DNA from: Eudoraea adriatica DSM 19308
GTDB taxonomy: Bacteria > Bacteroidota > Bacteroidia > Flavobacteriales > Flavobacteriaceae
Direction: 5' to 3'
Assembly (NCBI RefSeq): GCF_000382125.1
Contig: NZ_KB907547.1
Location: 620,001-684,000, forward strand
Length of the DNA stretch: 64,000 nucleotides
The translations under genes were made by a program, and so were the position numbers. The notes beneath the pieces are model-generated. The model did no database searches. It was not told where the DNA came from and was given only the letters and a program-made list of their open reading frames with translations. Positions 14,081 through 24,449 of this stretch are shown piece after piece (position 1 is the stretch's first letter; each line of letters begins with the position of its first letter).

Positions 14081-15946
14081 TTAAGCCATTTGAAGCTTTG
14101 GCTTTTTTACATAATACATCTTCATCATTCCCTTGTTTTTGACTTTCATTTTACCTCTGTATTCGCATTCAAATTCATCTTTTATCAATTCATAAGTGTT
14201 TTCAGAAACATTAATCTTTCCTGTTTCCGAATTCGTTTCCATACGGGCTGCAACATTTACGGTATCTCCCCAGATGTCATAAGCAAATTTTTGGGTGCCC
14301 ACTACTCCTGCAACCACGGGGCCAGTGTTAATCCCAATACGGATTTCATACGGCATTATATTAGTTTGATCCATGTTTTTAACTGCTTCGGTGATTTCAA
14401 TTATTTCAAAAGCTGCACGCACCATACTCAAAGCGTGATCTTCTTTATTCAAATGCAATCCACCGGTACACATATAGGCATCGCCCATGGTTTTAATCTT
14501 CTCCAGACCGTGCTTTTCCATAACTTCATCAAACCTCGAAAAATAATAATCCACACTTCTAACTAAGTTTTCCGGACTTAAATCAGCGGAGGAGCGGGTA
14601 AAATCTTTAAAGTCTGTAAATAAAACCGTGATAGATTCAAATTTTTTAGCTTCCACCTGGCCGGTTTCTTTTAATTCCTGGGCGGTTTCTTTAGGAAGGA
14701 TATTCAGCAACAGGGCGTCAGACCTGTTCTTTTCCTCCTCAATGATTGTATTGGTTTCTTTTACAAAACTATAGCGCTTGTAAAGAAAAAAGGCAAACAC
14801 AAAGATTACAACCAATGCCAGGGCAGTGGCGTAAATTATTATCTTTTGTCGTTTATCCTTTAACAATTGTATTTCGGACTCTTTCTGTAGAAGATCTACT
14901 TCAATCTGCTTCTGTGAAACTTCAAAATCTGCGCGTAAATTGGCCATTTCCTGTACCTTATCTATATTATTCAAGCTGTCTCTGTAAATGACATGGTTTT
15001 TGAAATACCTGAGGGATTCGGCAGTATTTCCCCTCTTCTCATAAAGTTCTGACAGCTTTAAATAGGCATCCCCTATTTGTTCTTTGAGTCCGTGTTGTTT
15101 TGCCAGGTCCAAACTTCTAAAGGCATAGGCGAAAGCTGTTTCCCATTGTTCCTGTTCCGCATAAATGTCAGACATATAAGTTAAATATACACTGATAGGG
15201 TAATAATGCCCGAGTTCTTCAAGCATTTCTGTAGCTTGTCCGATGTTTTTTTCAGCGATGTCATAATCTCCTTTTAAGGCATATGCAAGGCCTACATTAC
15301 CCATATTGTAAGCAATTCCCGGCTTATAATCTATAGCTCTGTATATATCTCCGGATTCCCTAAAAAACAACAGGGCAGAATCTGGTTTCGACAAACCAAG
15401 ATTGTACAAATCGCCAATATTTTCCATGGCACTGGCATATCCCACCGAATCATTTTCAGCTTTATGGATGGCGCTGGCCTCATTATAGTTGCGGATTGCA
15501 TTGTGATGATCATCCATGGCTGCGTAAACCGTCCCAATATTTATGTATAATATACCTAATTCGCGTTGTAGCTCTTCCTCCTCTGCCAGTTTTACGCCAT
15601 TAAAAAAACTTTCCAATGCCTGATTTAAGTCCCCTTTGAGGCGTAATGCAGTTCCTCTTTCCTGATATGCTCCAATAATATGGTGTGTGGAATCGGCTTC
15701 AATTGCCCTGCGCAGTAGTTCGCTGCTAAATTGCAGCGACTTATCCGGATCCGGGCTAAAGACAGCAAGGTCATAAAGTAATTTCAAACGGTCTTTTTCC
15801 TCAAATTGCCGGGAGTTGTATATCAATTCAAGACTGTCTGCGATATGCCTGTCCTGAGCATAGATGTAAGTGCCAAAAAAAAATAATCCGAATATTATAT
15901 AGGCTTTGCTATGGAATACTTTCCTAAAAATATTAAAATAAGCCAT
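14081..15946 (-). CDS. TPR-transmembrane class III adenylate cyclase, copy 1
   Basis: The 621-residue protein has a signal sequence, then a series of tetratricopeptide repeats (about residues 60-325, such as GTALRLKGDLNQALESFFNG and GNVGLAYALKGDYDIAEKN), a short coiled coil, one membrane helix (~369-388) and a cytoplasmic class III cyclase domain (~415-615). Catalytic residues are present: metal Asp in LFTDFKDF (~445) and MGDAYM (~489), and the transition-state Asn/Arg in DTVNVAARME. The base-specifying pair is Lys in EKIKTMG and Asp in YDIWGD, matching ATP, not GTP. The TPRs are predicted periplasmic, so they could sense an envelope partner and control cAMP synthesis. The gene lies 30 bases downstream of the small secreted protein gene at 15977-16453, an arrangement repeated at 21440-23757. 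Confidence 0.92.
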   Translation of the reverse strand: MAYFNIFRKVFHSKAYIIFGLFFFGTYIYAQDRHIADSLELIYNSRQFEEKDRLKLLYDLAVFSPDPDKSLQFSSELLRRAIEADSTHHIIGAYQERGTALRLKGDLNQALESFFNGVKLAEEEELQRELGILYINIGTVYAAMDDHHNAIRNYNEASAIHKAENDSVGYASAMENIGDLYNLGLSKPDSALLFFRESGDIYRAIDYKPGIAYNMGNVGLAYALKGDYDIAEKNIGQATEMLEELGHYYPISVYLTYMSDIYAEQEQWETAFAYAFRSLDLAKQHGLKEQIGDAYLKLSELYEKRGNTAESLRYFKNHVIYRDSLNNIDKVQEMANLRADFEVSQKQIEVDLLQKESEIQLLKDKRQKIIIYATALALVVIFVFAFFLYKRYSFVKETNTIIEEEKNRSDALLLNILPKETAQELKETGQVEAKKFESITVLFTDFKDFTRSSADLSPENLVRSVDYYFSRFDEVMEKHGLEKIKTMGDAYMCTGGLHLNKEDHALSMVRAAFEIIEITEAVKNMDQTNIMPYEIRIGINTGPVVAGVVGTQKFAYDIWGDTVNVAARMETNSETGKINVSENTYELIKDEFECEYRGKMKVKNKGMMKMYYVKKPKLQMA

Positions 15947-15976
15947 AGTTGAGGATAAGGAATAATTAATAGGGGT

Positions 15977-16453
15977 TTATCTATATGCCTTAATAACCGG
16001 ATCAATTAAAAATGTGCCTTCCTTACCTGCTACTTTAAACTCTAAACCATATTTTTCCATTAAATATGCTTTTTGTGTGCCAGGTCTGGTTTTAATTTTC
16101 GTGGCAACCAGTAATTGAGTAATTCCATTCCAGGAAAACGATTCGGGTTGTATTATACCCGTCTTTCTTTCAAAAATTCTATCTCCCGATATATGATTAA
16201 TCGAGGTGATTTCTACTACATCCGATGGGTCGCTAATAGAAACCGCATCCCAGATAATCCGATCTCTCTTTCTTACATGAGTTGTGTAATCTTCATTTGA
16301 AATGCCTGTGGGCTGTCCAAAATTGGCATTTGCCGCAATAGTGGCCTGTTCAATATTTGCAGTGTCTACATAAAGGGTTACAACGTGTAATTGGCCACAA
16401 GACACAAGGCTCATAACGGCCACTAAAATCAAAAGCAGATTGGTTGTTTTCAT
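15977..16453 (-). CDS. Small lipoprotein of a cyclase-linked family (member 1)
   Basis: The 158-residue lipoprotein (lipobox LVSC) shares a layout with the products at 23308 and 23964: H-x-VTLYVDT near the mature start, a mid-section with D-RIIWDAVS, then ITSINHISGDRIFE, and a terminal strand GTFLIDPVIKAYR. The predicted fold is an all-beta sandwich. It is the first gene of a likely two-gene operon with the TPR-cyclase at 14081 (30-base gap). I do not recognise a described family. By position it may be a periplasmic ligand or partner of the cyclase's TPR domain; that is inference. Confidence 0.75.
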   Translation of the reverse strand: MKTTNLLLILVAVMSLVSCGQLHVVTLYVDTANIEQATIAANANFGQPTGISNEDYTTHVRKRDRIIWDAVSISDPSDVVEITSINHISGDRIFERKTGIIQPESFSWNGITQLLVATKIKTRPGTQKAYLMEKYGLEFKVAGKEGTFLIDPVIKAYR

Positions 16454-16714
16454 AATGACTTTCTTTAAGTTAGTATATGGGGGAAATTTATTTGTCCTAC
16501 ATTCCGATACTGTTTAATTTCAATTCGGGATCTGTCGTAAATACCTTTGCCTCTTCTATTGGCTTAGCAAAGATGGCTCAAAAAGCTCCCCTTAATATAG
16601 TGAAATTAAGCGTATTAGTAAAATGACTTTGTACGAATGGCATAGAATCATGTCCGAAAGTAGTATTTTTCTTATCCCAGAGAAAAATAGAGATCCCTGG
16701 CGGGCCCGTATGCT

Positions 16715-17548
16715 TTAAATCTCTATCTCATGCCCCTGAACTGCAAGTTCAATAGGAAAATCATTGGTATGGGAATTCATAAAGCTAGTGAATATATCAG
16801 ATCTGTATTTGTCGGTATGCGCAGGATCGTGATGAAACATCACCAAACGTTTAGCCTTGGCCCTCTTAGCTAATTCGGCAGCAATTTCCAATGTACAATG
16901 CCCCCACCCTACTTTCTTTTTATATTCCTCGCAGCCAAATTGGGAATCGTGAATAAGCAAATCTGTCTTATTGCAGAGATCAAAACCAGAGATCCATTTA
17001 TCCTCTTTAAATAAGTGGGGTTTATTTAAAACGGGTTCATGATCCGGGATATAGGCAACGGATCTGGATCCCATCTGGATTCTATAGCCAACTGTTGGGC
17101 CGGGATGACAAACAAATTTGGCAGTTATTAAAAACTTCCCAAGCTTAAATGGTTCGTTTGGCAATTCGTGTATCACCAATTTGCTGGGGATATCCCTAAG
17201 CATTACAGGGAAAAGTGGTGGAGACAAAAATCTCTTCAATCTGTCTTTTAAAGGGTAGGAACTACCCCCGGGACCCCAAATATGTATTTCTTTGTTCGGA
17301 TCAAAAATAGGCTTAAAAAAACCCAGACCCTGAATATGATCCATATGTAGATGAGTCAACAAAATATCTATCCGGTCTGCACTACTATAGCTGTCAAAAT
17401 CTATTTCCAATATGCCCGTGCCTGCATCCAGAATTAATCTTTCATTAGCATCTATGATTTCAATACACGAGGTATTGCCTCCCAACTTCTGTGTCTCCTT
17501 TGAAGAGGTAGGGTATGCGCCTCTGGTTCCATGTAGTTTGATTCTCAT
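16715..17548 (-). CDS. MBL-fold metallohydrolase (phosphodiesterase-like)
   Basis: The 277-residue cytoplasmic protein has the metallo-beta-lactamase fold. It opens with LHGTRGAYP and GGNTSCIEI, then LILDAGTGILE, the zinc motif HLHMDH, a later His in FVCHPGPTVGYR, Asp/His in AYIPDHEPV, LLIHDSQF, and FHHDPAHTD. The G-T-R-G-x-x-P start is typical of the PhnP-like group that hydrolyses phosphodiesters, including cyclic ones. The start codon overlaps the end of the PAS-domain gene by 4 bases (ATGA), so translation is coupled. Being near an adenylate cyclase gene, a cyclic nucleotide phosphodiesterase role is a reasonable guess, not shown. Confidence 0.85.
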   Translation of the reverse strand: MRIKLHGTRGAYPTSSKETQKLGGNTSCIEIIDANERLILDAGTGILEIDFDSYSSADRIDILLTHLHMDHIQGLGFFKPIFDPNKEIHIWGPGGSSYPLKDRLKRFLSPPLFPVMLRDIPSKLVIHELPNEPFKLGKFLITAKFVCHPGPTVGYRIQMGSRSVAYIPDHEPVLNKPHLFKEDKWISGFDLCNKTDLLIHDSQFGCEEYKKKVGWGHCTLEIAAELAKRAKAKRLVMFHHDPAHTDKYRSDIFTSFMNSHTNDFPIELAVQGHEIEI

Positions 17549-17943
17549 AGCTTTAGATCATTGTCCCAAAAAATAGCCAAAGCCCCGGCAAATTCCTTGG
17601 ACCTTCCAATGATAGGAATAGAAGTAACAGAGATTTTGAAAGATTTGCCTTCCAGGCTTTTAATCCAGAAGGTCTTATGGGCGGGCACATGTGTTTTTAT
17701 TGTGCTTACAAGCGGAAGTTCATCTGGTGGAATTGCCTTACCTTTTTTATCATGCGGTTGAAATGCATTACCCCATTCTCCAACCCGCATTTCTCCGGTG
17801 TCCTGGAACCGCTGGCCAAGGATTCGTTCTGCCGGTTCATTATAAAAAATCAGCGTTCCTTCCGGATCTACTATAAAAACAGGTACGCTGAGACAATCTG
17901 CCAATTGCCGGCTTAAAATAATTTCAATTTCATGTGCTGACAT
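17545..17943 (-). CDS. Single-domain PAS protein
   Basis: The 132-residue protein is essentially one PAS domain: VPVFIVDPEGTLIFYNEPAERILG at the front (seen at residues ~20-43), a middle loop with PPDELPLV, and closing strands FWIKSLEGKSFKISVTSIPI and GALAIFWD. It has no output domain. Its end overlaps the start of the MBL hydrolase by 4 bases, so the two are probably made together and the PAS protein may sense a signal for the hydrolase. Proteins of this type often bind a small ligand or cofactor; which one cannot be told. Confidence 0.85.
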   Translation of the reverse strand: MSAHEIEIILSRQLADCLSVPVFIVDPEGTLIFYNEPAERILGQRFQDTGEMRVGEWGNAFQPHDKKGKAIPPDELPLVSTIKTHVPAHKTFWIKSLEGKSFKISVTSIPIIGRSKEFAGALAIFWDNDLKL

Positions 17944-18630
17944 AGGCAGACAGGTTTTGCAGGAGAGTTCTTCTAAATGTATAAAAAATAATTCGTTTTT
18001 ATTCTATAATGCCCGCCAGAATATATTGCCATTAATAGGAACGTTACCCGGGAGAAAGATAAAAGTACAAGATAATAATTTCATTAAAATTCCCCTATAT
18101 AAAAACCCTAGAAGGTCTATGGCTTTTATTTATTGCACCGTATTGTCGATAATAGCTCTGTAATAGTGCCTGAATAAAAGGGGTATGATCTTAATTAACA
18201 TTGAAGTCTAATCCGCAAACCTAAATCAAAAAATAAGGTGCCAATAGATAAAATGCTGACAAAACTTATCGGGTTAAAATATAAAAAAGCCCTGAACAAC
18301 ATCAAAGGCTCTTTTAAGTATTATTGATTCAACTTTAGTTTGATCCGGCTACACTTAGTTCAGGGATGAGCGAGTGAAATTCCATCCCTTTAAACTTGTA
18401 CCTTCACTTTACCAAAGAACCCTTCTGCAATAGGCTAATACCAAACTTGTGGCGGAGTGCCTCAAAAAACTTATGGGCTAATAGTATAGGAATAGCTTTC
18501 TAAAACTCTACTTCAGGCATAAAAACTCCTCATTATTATTTTAAATCTTATATGTATCTTCGGCAAACTAAATTCAAAAAGGTATTTTCACCAGGCTGTG
18601 AATTATGTCCTATTCTAAAAATATATAAGC
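17944..18630. other. Intergenic region between divergent genes, no gene seen
   Basis: 687 bases separate the leftward PAS gene from the rightward M1 peptidase. No convincing open frame or RNA gene is present. An imperfect hairpin with a short T run (18283-18315, AAAAAAGCC / GGCTCTTTT) and a 6-bp inverted repeat (18363-18388, GGGATG / CATCCC) are visible. Promoters for both flanking genes should lie here. TATCTTCG about 75 bases before the peptidase start resembles a Bacteroidetes -7 box. Confidence 0.5.
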
Positions 18631-20856
18631 ATGTTAAAAAAACTATTATTCTTTTTTTCTCTGATCCTTTTTAATGCTGTCACTCTCGCTCAAACCCAAC
18701 CGTGGCAAGGAAAATTTGAGCCCATTGATAATATGATTAATCCACCCAACAGCTACCGAGCGGCGAGTGGAGCGCCTGGAAAAGCTTATTGGCAGCAACG
18801 GGCTGATTATAAAATTAAAGCAACATTGGATGAAGAAAATAATACAATTACGGGGGAGGAAACCATTACCTACCACAACAATTCTCCCGATGATCTAAGC
18901 TATATCTGGATTCAGCTGGAACAGAATGTAAACAAAAAAGGAAGTGAAGATTTCGGTTCTTTTTTTAATAGCATAAAAGATTCCATAAATACGCGGCAAA
19001 TGCAATTGCTTACAAGAGCCATTGATTTTCCTGCCGGCTACACCATTAAATACATAAAAGATGCCAATGGCAACCCCATGAAATCATTCGTGAATAATAC
19101 AATGATGAAGGTAGTGCTTAAAGAGCCCCTTAAATCTGGTGTATCTATAAGTTTTTCTATGGCATGGTCTTATCCCATCACCGACAGAAGCATGTTTTTC
19201 TTATCAAGGGAAGGTTATGAGTATTTCCCCGGCGATGACAATACAGTTTACCTAATAGCCCACTGGTTTCCGAGAATGGCGGTTTACAATGACACCGAAG
19301 GCTGGCAAAATCAGCAATTTCAAAGACTTGGGGAGTTTGCTTTGGAATTTGGCGATTATTATGTTGAATTAACCGTACCCGAAGATCACATTATCGCTTC
19401 TACAGGTTCCCTGCAAAATGGTGATGCCGTGCTTTCCAAAACACAACAGGAAAGATTGAAAGAAGCCGCCGGTTCCTTTGACAAGCCAGTGATGATCGTT
19501 ACCAAAGATGAAGCCGAGAACAATGAGAAAGCGAAATCCAATAAACAGAAAACATGGATTTTTAGCGCTTCCAACGTGCGTGACTTTGCTTTTGCGTCAT
19601 CCCGTAAGTTCCTATGGGATGCCCAGGCTGTAAAACTGCCTACAAATACTGTTATGGCAATGTCTTTTTACCCTAAAGAGGGTTTGCCGGTATGGAAAGA
19701 AGAATCTACAAAAGCAATCAAAAATGCATTGGAAGTTTATTCAGAAGCTACTTTTGATTATCCTTATCCTGTGGCTATTTCAGTTAATACTTCTAATATA
19801 GGAATGGAATTCCCCATGATTAGTTTTAATGGGGGCAGGCCCAAGAATGGCAAAATAAGTGATCGTGCCAGGGCGGGAATGATTGGTACTATTATCCATG
19901 AAGTTGGTCATAATTGGTTTCCCATGATCGTTAGTTCGGATGAGCGCAAATGGATGTGGATGGATGAAGGCTTAAACACATTCATTCATCAGAGAACTGT
20001 AGCCGAAAGATACCCAGAATTTAGCAGTGCTACTCCTAAAACCATTGTGCCTTTTATGAGTGGTGACAAAAATATAATGCGTCCTATAATGACCACCTCT
20101 GACAATGAAATCCTGACCCAGTTTGGTAATAACTTTTACATGAAGCCTACTGTTGGTTTGCAGATGTTACGAAACTCCATTGTTGGCCGTGAATTATTTG
20201 ACCAGGCATTTAAAGAATATGCCAATCGCTGGAAATACAAACACCCGAATCCGGCAGATTTATTCAGGACCCTGGAAGACGCAACTGCCGTAGACCTGGA
20301 TTGGTTTTTCCGGGGATGGTTCTTTACGACCGACAATGTTGATATGGAACTCACGGATGTAAAATGGTTTAGAGTCAATGAAGAAGAACTCAATTCCAAG
20401 GACCAGAAAAAAACCGTTAAATTGAAAATTGAAGGTGAAAATTTCAGCGAACAGGCAAAGGATTTTTCGAGTGGCCCGGAAGCAATAACCATGACCTCTA
20501 CCCCCGATGCGAGCTATGGCGGATTTTTATCAAGAATGGATGAGCCTGAGCTCCGGAAACAACTTTCCGATAAAAATATTTATGTGGTAACTATTAAAAA
20601 TATTGGGGGTCTGGTGATGCCTGTAACCATAGAATGGCTATATACAGATGGCTCCAGGGAGATTGACACGCTGCCTGCAGAAGTCTGGCGCGGCAACGAA
20701 TATGAAATTAAAAGGACCTTTGTAAAAGAAAAAGAAGTTTCAAAAGTGAATTTAGATCCTAATTTTGAATTTGCCGATACGGATATGAGAAACAATAGCT
20801 TTCCCAAAGTAGAAGCGCCATCAGAATTTGATGCTTTTAAGTCAAAACAGGAATAG
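18631..20856 (+). CDS. M1 family metallopeptidase (aminopeptidase N-like), secreted
   Basis: The 741-residue enzyme has a signal peptide (ending TLAQ) and an M1 peptidase core. The zinc site is HEVGHNW with the third ligand Glu in WMDEGLNTF, the normal HExxH-18-E spacing. The exopeptidase motif usually GAMEN is NIGMEFP, as in the group of Bacteroidetes enzymes that ends with a short C-terminal region. The catalytic Tyr is not obvious by eye. The protein probably trims peptides in the periplasm or outside. Promoter-proximal and followed by a strong terminator, so it is transcribed alone. Confidence 0.9.
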   Translation: MLKKLLFFFSLILFNAVTLAQTQPWQGKFEPIDNMINPPNSYRAASGAPGKAYWQQRADYKIKATLDEENNTITGEETITYHNNSPDDLSYIWIQLEQNVNKKGSEDFGSFFNSIKDSINTRQMQLLTRAIDFPAGYTIKYIKDANGNPMKSFVNNTMMKVVLKEPLKSGVSISFSMAWSYPITDRSMFFLSREGYEYFPGDDNTVYLIAHWFPRMAVYNDTEGWQNQQFQRLGEFALEFGDYYVELTVPEDHIIASTGSLQNGDAVLSKTQQERLKEAAGSFDKPVMIVTKDEAENNEKAKSNKQKTWIFSASNVRDFAFASSRKFLWDAQAVKLPTNTVMAMSFYPKEGLPVWKEESTKAIKNALEVYSEATFDYPYPVAISVNTSNIGMEFPMISFNGGRPKNGKISDRARAGMIGTIIHEVGHNWFPMIVSSDERKWMWMDEGLNTFIHQRTVAERYPEFSSATPKTIVPFMSGDKNIMRPIMTTSDNEILTQFGNNFYMKPTVGLQMLRNSIVGRELFDQAFKEYANRWKYKHPNPADLFRTLEDATAVDLDWFFRGWFFTTDNVDMELTDVKWFRVNEEELNSKDQKKTVKLKIEGENFSEQAKDFSSGPEAITMTSTPDASYGGFLSRMDEPELRKQLSDKNIYVVTIKNIGGLVMPVTIEWLYTDGSREIDTLPAEVWRGNEYEIKRTFVKEKEVSKVNLDPNFEFADTDMRNNSFPKVEAPSEFDAFKSKQE

Positions 20857-20883
20857 CATAATCTATTGCCCAATTACAGGATA

Positions 20884-20918
20884 CAAAGAGGCAGCCAGGA
20901 TGGCTGCCTCTTTGTTTT
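20884..20918 (+). terminator. Rho-independent terminator after the M1 peptidase
   Basis: A 13-bp perfect stem (CAAAGAGGCAGCC / GGCTGCCTCTTTG) with a 5-base loop is followed by TTTT. It lies between two convergent genes and may also stop transcription from the right. Confidence 0.9.
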
Positions 20919-20949
20919 CATAAAACTAATACTTAGGAGAACAAACCTT

Positions 20950-21279
20950 TTAAGAATTGTCCTGGACCGCAGCTTTTGGTGCGTTTTTTTTAACTGATGC
21001 TATGCCTTTCGCCATAGAGGAAGCAGATGCGTACATTTGGCTGTCTCCAATCACTTGTCCATTAGAAGCTTTTAAGCTGAAATAAGGGCTACCATCTTTG
21101 GCTATTTTTTTCTCAAACATTTTATCATTTTGTGAGTTCTTTCGAACGGATTCTATCCCGTTATCACAAGCAGCTTTTGAGTTATATGCTTCACTACTTA
21201 GAATTACCTGGCCGTTTGAGGCTTTAAGGTTAAATCTTAACTTCCCGGCCTTGTCTTTTTTAATTTCAAATTTTCCCAT
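20950..21279 (-). CDS. YegP-family protein, two DUF1508 repeats
   Basis: The 109-residue protein contains two tandem DUF1508 units, each with the signature F-x-LKASNGQVI (FNLKASNGQVILSSEAY and FSLKASNGQVIGDSQMY), followed by KA.DNGIESVRKN or SMAKGIASVKKN. The family forms small beta-rich domains of unknown function and is widespread in bacteria. No signal peptide, so cytoplasmic. It stands between the terminator and the second cyclase. Confidence 0.92.
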   Translation of the reverse strand: MGKFEIKKDKAGKLRFNLKASNGQVILSSEAYNSKAACDNGIESVRKNSQNDKMFEKKIAKDGSPYFSLKASNGQVIGDSQMYASASSMAKGIASVKKNAPKAAVQDNS

Positions 21280-21439
21280 TTCTTTGATTTTTAATACTGC
21301 CTATAAAAGTAACAAATTATTGTCTTTTTTTTCAGTTTTTTAAAGCACTTAATGATTTTATTCCCTTTGTTTTTGAATAACCTGATATTAAAAATCTCGT
21401 TGTTTATATTCCTGATAATTGTCCGAAAAAGACTGTCTA

Positions 21440-23275
21440 TTAGATAAGGTTTTTGCTGCAGGGGCCTTGTACAAAATACATTTTCATTTTACCCCGGTTT
21501 TTTACGGCTATTTCTCCCCTGTACTCGCAAATAAATTCATTCTTAATCAATTCATAGGTGTTTTGGCTGATATTTATCTTTCCTGCTTCAGACATGGTTT
21601 CCATTCGGGAGGCCACATTTACAGTATCGCCCCAGATGTCATAAGAGAACTTTTTACTTCCAACCACCCCGGCCACAACGGGCCCTGTATTTATCCCAAT
21701 CCGAACATCAAATGAAAGTCCCTGGTCTGTTTCGCTTAACTTGACATCTTCTACAAATTGTAAGATCTCAAAGCCAGCCTGTACCATTTTTATGGCATGA
21801 TCCTTTATTGGAAAAGGTAATCCCCCTGCACACATATAGGAATCTCCGATAGTCTTTATTTTTTCGAGTCCATATTTTTCAATAATGTCATCAAATGCCG
21901 TAAAGTAATACCCCAGTCTTTTAACCAGTTCTTCAGGGTTTATTTGCTCCGAATATGCCGTGAAAGCCTTAAAATCTGTAAACAAAACGGTAACGGATTC
22001 AAATTTATTGGCCTTCACAGTGCCCGATTCCTTTAATTCACGGGCAGTTTCTTCCGGCAAAATATTGAGCAGCAAACTTTCGGAACGGTCCTTCTCCTTT
22101 TCAATAATAGCGTTGGTTTTTCTAACATATAAATTTCGTCTGTACAATCCTATAGCCATAAGGAAAATTAGAAACAGGGCCGTGGCAGATGCAATAGTAA
22201 TTATCTTTTGCGTTCTTTTTTGCTGATTGGCAAGATCCAGCTCTATTTGCTTTTGTGCTATTTGCATTTCGCCCATTTGTTGAACGGTTGTTATATTTTT
22301 TACACTATCCCTGAAGGCAATATAATTCCGATAATATTTCAGCGCTGCAGAGGCATATCCCGTTCTTTCATATAATTCTGATAGCTTTAGATAGGCACTG
22401 CCCATTTCTGCTTTCAAACCATATTGTTTTGCCAGATTCAAAGAACGTAAAGAGTACGTAAAAGCGGCATCCCAATCGTTTCTGTAAGCATAAATATCAG
22501 ACATGTAGGTGAGATATACAGTAATGGGCCGGTAGTCTCCTAATTCTTCAAGGATGGCAATGGCCTCGCTGATATTTTCTTCCGCTTTAATTTCTTGTCC
22601 TTTTTGAGCAAAAGCCAGGCCTTTATTTCCAAGATTATAGGCCAAAAAAGGTTTTCTGTTTTGAGCTTTAAAGATGGGCCCCGACTTGTTAAACAATACC
22701 AGGGCTGAATCTGGTTCGCCAAATCCCAGATAGGAGTCTCCAAGGTTTTCCACCGCGATAGCATAAGCAATTCTATCTTCTAATCCTTCCAGAATTTTGA
22801 TGGCATTGCTGTAATATTGAATAACATTGGGTTTATTCCCCATTCCTGAATAAACAGCGGCTATAGCAGTATATAAATTTCCTAATCTTCCTTTTTCGGT
22901 GCTTTCATCAATGAATTCTCTGGCTTTAAAATAACTTTCCAGAGCCATGCTTAAATCACCTTTTTGTTCATGGGCGTTCCCTCGGTGTCGATATCCTCTA
23001 TAAACATACCTGTTTGAATCGACTGCTATAGCCTCTTTTAAAAGCAGATCAGTATATTTCAGTGATTCATCTGGATCGGGGTTATTTTGGGCTATTTTGT
23101 CTAATATATCCAATTGTTGCGTGGGGTCATAGTTTCCAGACTCATACAGTTTTACCAGACTATCGGATACAATTTTATTTTGACTAAAACTTGGTAAAAA
23201 TGTAAACAGGAGAATTCCAAATACAAAAATTCCTTTGACAAGCTTCGCAGTGTTCTTTGTGCGATACATTTTCAT
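21440..23275 (-). CDS. TPR-transmembrane class III adenylate cyclase, copy 2
   Basis: The 611-residue paralogue of the cyclase at 14081 has the same order: signal sequence, tetratricopeptide repeats (about residues 60-320), coiled coil, one membrane helix (IITIASATALFLIFLMAIGL), and a class III cyclase domain with LFTDFKAF, EKIKTIGDSYM, and YDIWGDTVNVASRMET. The Lys/Asp pair again points to ATP as substrate. Sequence similarity is strong in the cyclase domain and clear in the TPRs. It lies 32 bases after the small secreted protein gene at 23308, the same order as copy 1. The start has a choice of two Met codons (23275 or 23269). Confidence 0.92.
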   Translation of the reverse strand: MKMYRTKNTAKLVKGIFVFGILLFTFLPSFSQNKIVSDSLVKLYESGNYDPTQQLDILDKIAQNNPDPDESLKYTDLLLKEAIAVDSNRYVYRGYRHRGNAHEQKGDLSMALESYFKAREFIDESTEKGRLGNLYTAIAAVYSGMGNKPNVIQYYSNAIKILEGLEDRIAYAIAVENLGDSYLGFGEPDSALVLFNKSGPIFKAQNRKPFLAYNLGNKGLAFAQKGQEIKAEENISEAIAILEELGDYRPITVYLTYMSDIYAYRNDWDAAFTYSLRSLNLAKQYGLKAEMGSAYLKLSELYERTGYASAALKYYRNYIAFRDSVKNITTVQQMGEMQIAQKQIELDLANQQKRTQKIITIASATALFLIFLMAIGLYRRNLYVRKTNAIIEKEKDRSESLLLNILPEETARELKESGTVKANKFESVTVLFTDFKAFTAYSEQINPEELVKRLGYYFTAFDDIIEKYGLEKIKTIGDSYMCAGGLPFPIKDHAIKMVQAGFEILQFVEDVKLSETDQGLSFDVRIGINTGPVVAGVVGSKKFSYDIWGDTVNVASRMETMSEAGKINISQNTYELIKNEFICEYRGEIAVKNRGKMKMYFVQGPCSKNLI

Positions 23276-23307
23276 AAAACAGGAATTGGATTCTTCATTG
23301 GTCTTTA

Positions 23308-23757
23308 CTACTCTTCAATCTGGATTTTTGGCTCAATGGTATATGTATTGGTATTCGAACCAACATTAAATTGAAGTTGATATTTGTAAGGGGTCTTTCC
23401 TCCGCGAATAACCGTAGCCCTCGTCATCTCATTTCCCTTTATGACATCTGAACTAAAAATTCTTGGCCCACTAATGTACTTAATTGCCCTTATCCTGACC
23501 GGAGTATTTGGTTCCGTAGAGGATAACCCTTTCCATATAATGTTATCGCCTACCTGGGCAAAAATAGTAAAGTTAGCAGGGGTGTTATTTAATACAGTAG
23601 TAGTCTTCTCCACGGTAAAGTAGCATGTCTTAGCAGGGTCAGCATTCTTTGTATCTACATTAAGTGTGATTTCATGTACTGACTGTGCATGTAACCCATG
23701 TGAAGCCACTGCTATCATCAAAATAAATACGAAAAAACTAATTCTATTCAGTTTCAT
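23308..23757 (-). CDS. Small secreted protein of the cyclase-linked family (member 2)
   Basis: The 149-residue protein has a signal peptide (cleavage after LHAQ) but, unlike member 1, no lipobox. It begins HEITLNVDT, has VGDNIIWKGLS in the middle, IRAIKYISGPRIF, and ends in TYTIEPKIQIEE. These blocks align with the products at 15977 and 23964. The gene is immediately upstream of the second TPR-cyclase (32 bases), so the gene pair is duplicated as a unit. Predicted all-beta. Function unknown. Confidence 0.78.
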   Translation of the reverse strand: MKLNRISFFVFILMIAVASHGLHAQSVHEITLNVDTKNADPAKTCYFTVEKTTTVLNNTPANFTIFAQVGDNIIWKGLSSTEPNTPVRIRAIKYISGPRIFSSDVIKGNEMTRATVIRGGKTPYKYQLQFNVGSNTNTYTIEPKIQIEE

Positions 23758-23882
23758 TTACTCCAATTCTAATTATCAAACAAAAAAAGAGGTTATACAA
23801 TACTTATTCTATCTATTTAAACAGATTAATATTTGAAATATACTATATCTTCATATAATTACACGAATTCTTCCAAAAAGAT

Positions 23883-23907
23883 AACCCGGGTTAGCCCGGG
23901 TTTTTCT
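23883..23907 (-). terminator. Probable terminator between family members 2 and 3
   Basis: An 8-bp perfect stem (AACCCGGG / CCCGGGTT) with a TTAG loop lies downstream of the leftward gene at 23964. The T run (TTTTT) is best on the + strand, while on the - strand ATCTTTTT follows the stem, so it may work in both directions. Confidence 0.65.
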
Positions 23908-23963
23908 TTATCTGAAATGTATTCAATTCTAGGCCGCAAAGGCTTACTTGTATACAAATAATA

Positions 23964-24449
23964 CTATTGAACCTTAATTTTTGGGTCAAACTGGTACATT
24001 TCACCATCTACTGTAAATTGTATGGCATAGGAATACTCCTTATTTGCAGCATTCCTTAAAACTTTTTCCTTTACCTTTTTTTTACTTCCGTTATTTCTTT
24101 TACCCTTTTTTCTGGCGTTGGAAAATATATTTTGACTATTGCCCACAGCTCTGAATTCTATCATCTCAATATCAATAGTTTCACCAGTCGTCGTAACCCC
24201 TTCCCATTCTACAAAATCTTCGGGATCAACAAGAATGGTAAAATCCTTGGCCGGCTCACTGACCTCCACAATTGTAACCTCTTCATCAGCAACATCAAAA
24301 GTACTGGCTGCCGCAGGATCATCCTGACTTAATTCTTCGGTATCAACTGTTAATATTATTACATGAGTAGCGCCCTGGCTGTATAAATTAGTCCCAAAGC
24401 AAATTAATAAGAGGGCTATTCCTAATAAATGTCGAGTAAATAGTTTCAT
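23964..24449 (-). CDS. Small secreted protein of the cyclase-linked family (member 3)
   Basis: The 161-residue protein has a signal peptide (ending LYSQ) and the family blocks HVIILTVDT, DFVEWEGVTTTG, IEMIEFRAVGNSQNIF and the closing FTVDGEMYQFDPKIKVQ. A lysine-rich insertion (RKKGKRNNGSKKKVKEK) and an acidic region (DVADEEVTIVEVSEP) distinguish it. It is separated from members 1 and 2 by a terminator and has no cyclase gene directly downstream in its own transcript, though the second cyclase pair follows. Function unknown. Confidence 0.75.
   Translation of the reverse strand: MKLFTRHLLGIALLLICFGTNLYSQGATHVIILTVDTEELSQDDPAAASTFDVADEEVTIVEVSEPAKDFTILVDPEDFVEWEGVTTTGETIDIEMIEFRAVGNSQNIFSNARKKGKRNNGSKKKVKEKVLRNAANKEYSYAIQFTVDGEMYQFDPKIKVQ

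Follow-up and report, generated by a model that had tools for sequence, protein, structure and literature searches.

Two gene cassettes were analysed in a 64,000-nucleotide window (the whole stretch of DNA considered here) of the Eudoraea adriatica DSM 19308 genome (contig NZ_KB907547.1, positions 620,001–684,000; G000:C2:620001-684000; genome of 3.9 Mb). In both cassettes, a gene for a small protein stands directly upstream of a gene for a predicted adenylate cyclase with tetratricopeptide repeats (TPR). It was found that this small protein–cyclase unit is real and that the pairing is near-absolute within one clade of cyclases. The gene pairing, the fold of the small proteins, the catalytic residues and the export segments are evident from the sequences and the structure models. 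As to function, we give about an even chance to the assumption that each pair or triplet is a dedicated signalling unit, in which a receptor adenylate cyclase would have a cognate partner of the PixA fold that docks on the TPR domain and sets cyclic AMP (cAMP).

Pairing of the small genes with the cyclase genes

The five open reading frames listed in the preliminary description were recovered, all on the minus strand. The first cassette consists of small protein 1 (15977–16453; 158 amino acid residues) and cyclase 1 (14081–15946; 621 residues). The second is opened by small protein 3 (23964–24449; 161 residues), which is followed by small protein 2 (23308–23757; 149 residues) and cyclase 2 (21440–23275; 611 residues). 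The gaps between small gene and cyclase gene are 30 and 32 bases. Small protein 3 had been described as merely standing beside the second pair; it does adjoin that pair, but it is a member of the cassette, since the order small–small–cyclase recurs in relatives (for example, in loci L157, L165 and L246). The proposed paralogy of the two pairs holds, the cyclases being 51% identical over 616 columns. Small protein 2 is 31% identical to small protein 1 (E 1e-13) and 28% identical to small protein 3 (E 3e-12). The duplication is old: on the cyclase tree (61 rows, namely 56 from the clade and 5 from the outgroup) each window cyclase groups with a cyclase from another genome and not with its window neighbour. 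The window genome contains 12 Guanylate_cyc matches, six of them at 193.8–204 bits. Of these six high-scoring cyclases, four are clade members, and every one of the four comes with one or more small genes of its own; two are encoded in the window and the others on contigs 3 and 6 (one each).

A search of 199 genomes of the family with a profile of 17 cyclases (A3) gave a bimodal list, with 38 matches at 779.7 bits or more (the clade) and 22 at 594.7 bits or less (sister TPR-cyclases). Loci were fetched for 58 of the 60, i.e., all 38 from the clade and 20 of the 22 sisters; G066:C96 and G075:C11 were left out. The upstream census suggested in the preliminary description showed that 37 of the 38 clade cyclases are preceded on their strand by a small gene, within 150 bp in 36 of them and at 514 bp in L180. 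No small gene was found at L189, even in a six-frame search, and none at the 20 sister cyclases examined, 17 of which had at least 600 bp of upstream sequence. A scan of GTDB contigs, whose loci overlap in part with those of the 199 genomes, placed 22 clade loci (L046–L066 and L107) among the best 79. All 22 carried the small gene; it precedes the cyclase in 20 and follows it in the two Gillisia loci L056 and L107. The other 57 of the best 79 loci had none (six frames, whole loci; best E 0.18), 50 of them with at least 600 bp of upstream sequence. The clade records include Eudoraea, Xanthomarina, Maribacter, Arenibacter, Gillisia, Polaribacter, Flavobacterium and Robiginitalea, as well as bins titled Cyclobacteriaceae and Saprospiraceae.

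The link would have been contradicted, according to the preliminary description, if homologues of the small protein were usually unlinked to cyclases. The reverse was observed. A profile of 47 small proteins (A5) gave 45 matches in the 199 family genomes, 42 of them in cassettes, and 20 matches in 345 genomes of the phylum, 19 of them in cassettes (eight of these also belong to the family set). A5 was built from cassette members and so favours cassette matches; the single protein 23308, a less biased query, gave 18 matches in 13 of the 199 genomes, 16 in cassettes, and the two weak ones (G026 and G170) were not confirmed. A match in a 1494-residue frame (G025:C1:2288970, E 0.003) was taken as chance. 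G263:C18 (L253), with a family profile E of 7e-7 in a small set and no cyclase within 1.5 kb, was counted as unlinked.

Good matches without a cyclase were also seen in G126:C22 and G103:C48, where they adjoin TPR membrane proteins. PixA-like small genes stand beside TPR membrane proteins at L257:4581-5135 and L258:3144-3845, where no cyclase domain was found. Such genes hint that the TPRs are the true partner.

One explanation of the adjacency is operon inheritance only, with a common promoter and regulon and no mutual action of the products. The genes are close enough for a single transcript, and the physical interaction of the products is a predicted one. Nevertheless, we consider this explanation very doubtful, since the adjacency survives deep divergence (small proteins 17–56% identical to the first row of A5, cyclases 44–66% identical to the first row of A3), duplication within genomes and the downstream move of the small gene in Gillisia.

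Fold of the small proteins and architecture of the cyclases

The sequence blocks initially noticed in the three small proteins were confirmed, with H28, L32, V34-D35-T36, D71, W75, I100-F101, P143 and I145 invariant in the three-protein alignment. Across the 47 aligned members of the family, invariance is limited to one Y and the P of a C-terminal D-P, and M1, the W and the D of this D-P are kept at 90% or more. No known family had been recognised for the proteins; this needed correction, since a structure model and profile comparisons assign them to the PixA/MakC/MakD fold. In structure comparison with the model of 23308, MakD, MakC and PixA ranked at the top, far above the remainder, with the same beta-sandwich fold. 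At the profile level, the PDB entry 8rqy was matched at E 1.8e-6, and hhalign gave E 7.9e-8. The profile of short members (A6) was not significant alone in the PDB (8rqy, E 0.2), and it aligned with A5 by hhalign at E 9.5e-24, the two profiles sharing members. Small protein 1 matched the family hidden Markov model at E 8e-33. PF12306 (PixA) was matched at E 0.1 or better by 7 of the 47 family members, L163 (26.6 bits) exceeding the 21-bit cut-off; at E 1 it gave no match to the three window proteins, and none was present in the window genome. When the window proteins were compared one by one with Pfam and NCBIfam, the sole trace of the PixA link was a weak MakCD hint (E 0.11).

Unlike PixA/AidA (PF12306) and Vibrio cholerae MakC/MakD, the three window proteins carry export segments by hydropathy and lack a PF12306 match; MakC and MakD are given as cytosolic in PMC11484084. 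The PF12306 proteins also differ in having no receptor cyclase nearby: of 22 matches over the cut-off, found in 13 of the 340 genomes, none lay within 1.5 kb of one, whereas the clade small proteins pair with such an enzyme. The functions of PixA, MakC and MakD are called unknown or poorly understood in PMC11484084 and PMC9060813. No report of a pairing between a cyclase and a PixA-fold protein was recognised in the literature as judged by titles and the beginnings of abstracts, most subscription journals being outside the search. Phage and defence families were tried as well and rejected, as PHROGs gave single weak matches (20 A2 members scanned, best E 0.015). PADLOC gave no match for the three window small proteins.

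The C-terminal ends of small proteins 1 and 3 are IDPVIKAYR and FDPKIKVQ, respectively, and E-P replaces D-P near the C-terminus of small protein 2. Of 71 relatives, 67 have D-P at this place near the C-terminus. The copy next to the cyclase has lost it in L157, L165 and L246; altogether, the loss affects four of eight tandem cassettes, while L171, L178, L187 and L249 retain D-P. D-P is present in PixA and MakC too. In SO1698 of the DP-EP family (PF08985), which has the same fold, apparent self-cleavage at Asp-Pro can be read from the chain ends of the structure; this Shewanella protein is said to have been described as self-cleaving at Asp-Pro by Osipiuk and colleagues in 2012. The other catalytic residues of SO1698 could not be mapped onto the small proteins, and PF08985 had no match in the window genome and one match below the cut-off in 296 genomes of the phylum. 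Autocleavage at D-P was dropped as a main claim because of D-P in PixA and MakC, E-P in small protein 2 and the loss in some tandem copies.

Some relatives have additional parts. In L053, L061 and L064 the small domain carries a fused RicinB lectin-like domain, and the gene downstream of the L050 cyclase encodes a RicinB-like/PixA-like fusion (RicinB match of 20.6 bits, below the Pfam cut-off). In L050:112-1248 the PixA-like domain is split by an array of 40-residue repeats with a 120-bp period, and searches gave no convincing match for this insert. By sequence reading, the PixA-like protein L249:1408-1860 has a transmembrane-like C-terminal tail after D-P.

Both window cyclases matched Guanylate_cyc (192.9 and 197.9 bits, cut-off 21.9) and TPR_12. 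The class III catalytic domain is located at 14105–14656 in cyclase 1 (G000:C2:634105-634656; Pfam PF00211) and at 21467–22018 in cyclase 2 (G000:C2:641467-642018; residues D434, K474, D478, D546, N553 and R557). The catalytic residues of such enzymes comprise two metal-binding Asp, a Lys/Asp pair for adenine, an Asn and an Arg. The six adenylate-type positions are kept in 56 of 56 clade cyclases, with the Arg in 55 of 56. Judging by domain and residues, the clade cyclases are class III adenylate cyclases. In the Lacinutrix record L066:5001-6915 the cyclase reading frame is interrupted and the small gene is open.

Export was called by a simple hydropathy rule. Since every frame was read from the first start codon that follows a stop, it is unlikely that a leader was missed. 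An N-terminal hydrophobic segment and a central transmembrane helix were found in 55 of the 56 clade cyclases, and the exception narrowly missed the threshold (1.29 against 1.3). Both window cyclases have an N-terminal export segment, a TPR domain, one transmembrane helix and the cyclase domain, and the proposed export of the TPR part is supported by hydropathy. The TPR domain of cyclase 2 (residues 26–365; 22181–23200), predicted to lie outside the inner membrane, was modelled by AlphaFold2 with a predicted local distance difference test score of 87.6. Its neighbours were, in order, LGN/Pins, RapI, APPBP2, other Rap proteins, NprR and KLC1, and Foldseek gave a similar order. Many of these are known for binding peptides or protein tails, and O-GlcNAc transferase and the TPRs of APC/C were also listed. 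As far as the model goes, this pattern shows the type of groove, not the ligand.

Other known systems resemble the unit in part. The catalytic domain, the residues and the membrane layout are common to receptor class III adenylate cyclases and the clade enzymes, in which, however, sensing would fall to an exported TPR domain whose partner, of the PixA fold, is encoded alongside. RRNPP systems (Rap-Phr, NprR-NprX) comprise a cytosolic TPR receptor and a short pre-peptide gene. The receptor fold, matching Rap and NprR in the model, and the adjoining small gene are alike, but the clade TPR is predicted to be outside the cytoplasm in the 55 cyclases with an export segment and a transmembrane helix, and the partner is modelled as a folded protein of mostly 110–200 residues and not as a short pre-peptide, so the unit falls outside RRNPP. 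Pycsar also has a cyclase, and a PycTM-family gene neighbours some relatives; the window cassettes, in contrast, lack PycTM and have adenylate-type residues, and the PADLOC PycC matches cover part of the PycC models. A Pycsar-type defence was considered for the PycTM neighbours and rejected, as no PycTM gene is near the window cassettes.

Export, co-divergence and the proposed action of the partner

In the proposed signalling unit (small–cyclase, or small–small–cyclase in the second cassette), the cyclase would present a TPR superhelix outside the inner membrane, connected by one transmembrane helix with the class III adenylate cyclase inside, and the co-encoded PixA/MakC/MakD-fold protein would be its cognate partner. 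The window partners, predicted to be exported and in one case a lipoprotein, would most likely dock on the TPR domain and set the activity of the enzyme, and cAMP on the inner side would then report the partner's state on the outer side. The partner itself might sense glycans, perhaps, as the lectin-like fusions in relatives suggest.

All three window small proteins have an N-terminal hydrophobic segment, with a lipobox-like LVSC, in our reading, in small protein 1. The outside-to-inside signalling postulated in the preliminary description fits these exported proteins and the co-divergence with the TPR part described below. The counts speak against it as a general rule: among 71 distinct small proteins (63 distinct loci, 62 with a partner; L241 is a cut copy of L049), 29 have an export segment and 42 do not, including the partners on contigs 3 and 6 of the window genome. 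Since the leaderless proteins occur with cyclases of the exported type, a secreted ligand is not general. On the cyclase tree the leaderless L163 is sister to the exported L057, and the exported Gillisia proteins and L175 are nested inside a leaderless group.

Partial Mantel tests were performed on the distances of the small, TPR and catalytic domains in 55 pairs. In the exported group (n = 22), the small domain co-diverged with TPR given the catalytic domain (partial r 0.354, 3/500) and not with the catalytic domain given TPR (0.030, 193/500). Dereplication (n = 18) left these values at 0.355 (17/1000) and 0.024 (388/1000); leave-one-out values of the association with TPR spanned 0.207–0.403. 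This modestly favours contact of the partner with the TPR domain where both are predicted to be outside.

Several facts weigh against the signalling unit with a docking partner. The 42 leaderless proteins lack an export segment although their cyclases carry one, and the export label changes four to five times on the cyclase tree, with at least three changes forced by well-supported branches. Over all 55 pairs the association with TPR is weak (0.147, 12/500; catalytic domain given TPR, 0.080, 67/500), and the leaderless pairs (n = 33) show no co-divergence with TPR (partial r 0.029, 201/500; dereplicated, n = 25, 615/1000). The Mantel test was chosen after the fact, and the alignments are noisy. 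Co-inheritance in an operon does not prove contact. Finally, for many sister cyclases no upstream gene lies close by, or the one that does is of a non-export kind. The chief fact left without explanation is that most of the small proteins are leaderless; it could be accounted for by a cytosolic effector, by contact in the cytosol or by release on lysis.

The first of these would make the small protein an output, namely an effector of the PixA type, such as an adhesin, a lectin or an anti-predator protein. The cAMP pathway would control its production or release, and its gene would have stayed near that of its regulator. Leaderless and exported forms would both be natural, the RicinB-like proteins of L053, L061, L064 and L050 would suit such a role, and so would the cytosolic location of MakC and MakD (PMC11484084). 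In addition, PMC9060813 describes proteins of the PixA family as inclusion body proteins of the stationary phase and two of them as controlled by quorum sensing. However, the near-absolute adjacency, with at least one partner per cyclase, including all four of the window genome, exceeds what a regulator and its target need, and the co-divergence with TPR in the exported group also argues against an effector. We regard this explanation as possible, though unlikely.

Alternatively, a leaderless small protein could stay in the cytoplasm and act there on the cyclase domain or the membrane-near linker, the exported forms being a derived rewiring. The leaderless state is the commoner one, the leaderless pairs show weak catalytic co-divergence (0.126, 35/500), and the C-terminal transmembrane tail of L249:1408-1860 would agree with such a site. 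These statistics are weak, and the co-divergence was not significant after dereplication (225/1000); moreover, the exported window members are left unexplained, and the branches nearest to the clade root are mixed or exported. We consider cytoplasmic action distinctly improbable.

Neighbouring genes and sister cyclases

Upstream of pair 1, a PAS protein gene overlaps a gene for a metallo-beta-lactamase (MBL)-fold hydrolase (16715–17943, minus strand). The hydrolase had a match below the cut-off to a cyclic-nucleotide phosphodiesterase model and better matches to RNase Z models; it is a possible cyclic-nucleotide phosphodiesterase. As judged by eye, L046 keeps the order MBL–small–cyclase–lipoprotein, with the MBL gene in the same place. 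A DUF1508 gene (20950–21279, minus strand) adjoins pair 2, and a look-alike was seen by eye near the L258 small gene (L258:6133-6459). PycTM genes (e.g., PF18967) were found in the fetched flanks of 12 of the 38 clade loci (11 distinct proteins), where about 0.17 would be expected at the density of the window genome, and of 5 of the 20 sister loci. HD-domain genes (e.g., PF01966) were found at 5 clade and 11 sister loci. Both kinds of neighbours may be outputs of the cyclic-nucleotide signal. The window cassettes have no PycTM neighbour, the two PycTM genes of the window genome lying outside the window.

For the sister cyclases, the next upstream gene on the strand was recorded for 20 cyclases of the family and 62 cyclase rows of the GTDB loci. 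The product of this slot is frequently, though not in every case, of the export type, and its kind differs from clade to clade. Within 160 bp, the slot held a protein with a type IX secretion system (T9SS) tail in 3 family and 7 GTDB cases and a GG-type precursor in 2 family and 3 GTDB cases; another TPR-cyclase occupied it in 8 GTDB cases and in none of the family, and something else in 5 and 12 cases, respectively. The gene was further off in 7 and 15 cases, and there was no upstream gene in 3 and 17. The T9SS-tail pattern is incomplete, having missed L195 and L196, which were both confirmed by NCBIfam. Among nine chosen slot proteins, NCBIfam found T9SS sorting domains over the cut-off in five of six (L068 scored 18.4 against a cut-off of 23) and NHLP precursors in three of three.

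Large T9SS-secreted proteins end 6–16 bp upstream of the sister cyclases in L193, L194, L195, L196 and L197. Genes for NHLP-leader precursors of ribosomally synthesised and post-translationally modified peptides stand directly upstream at L207:2784-3113, L208:6047-6355, L098:4653-4982, L118:4427-4756 and L079:4323-4631; three of these five were tested and confirmed, and L079 and L208 look identical. A wider and rather speculative scheme, which we think improbable, is a sender–receptor cAMP class of Bacteroidota, in which TPR-cyclases would be wired to the product of the upstream gene (PixA-fold proteins in the present clade, NHLP precursors or T9SS cargo in sister clades). In the clade with PixA-fold partners, a self-cleaved C-terminal Asp-Pro tail might be read by the TPR groove of peptide-binding type, and leaderless partners, freed only by the bursting of sister cells, would turn the receptor into a kin-lysis alarm.

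Constant pairing with an enzyme whose output can be read offers a direct route to the function of the PixA fold. If the signalling unit proposed here is true, it shows by what means some Bacteroidota pass information from outside on to cAMP; the four paralogous pairs of the window genome point to parallel, insulated channels.

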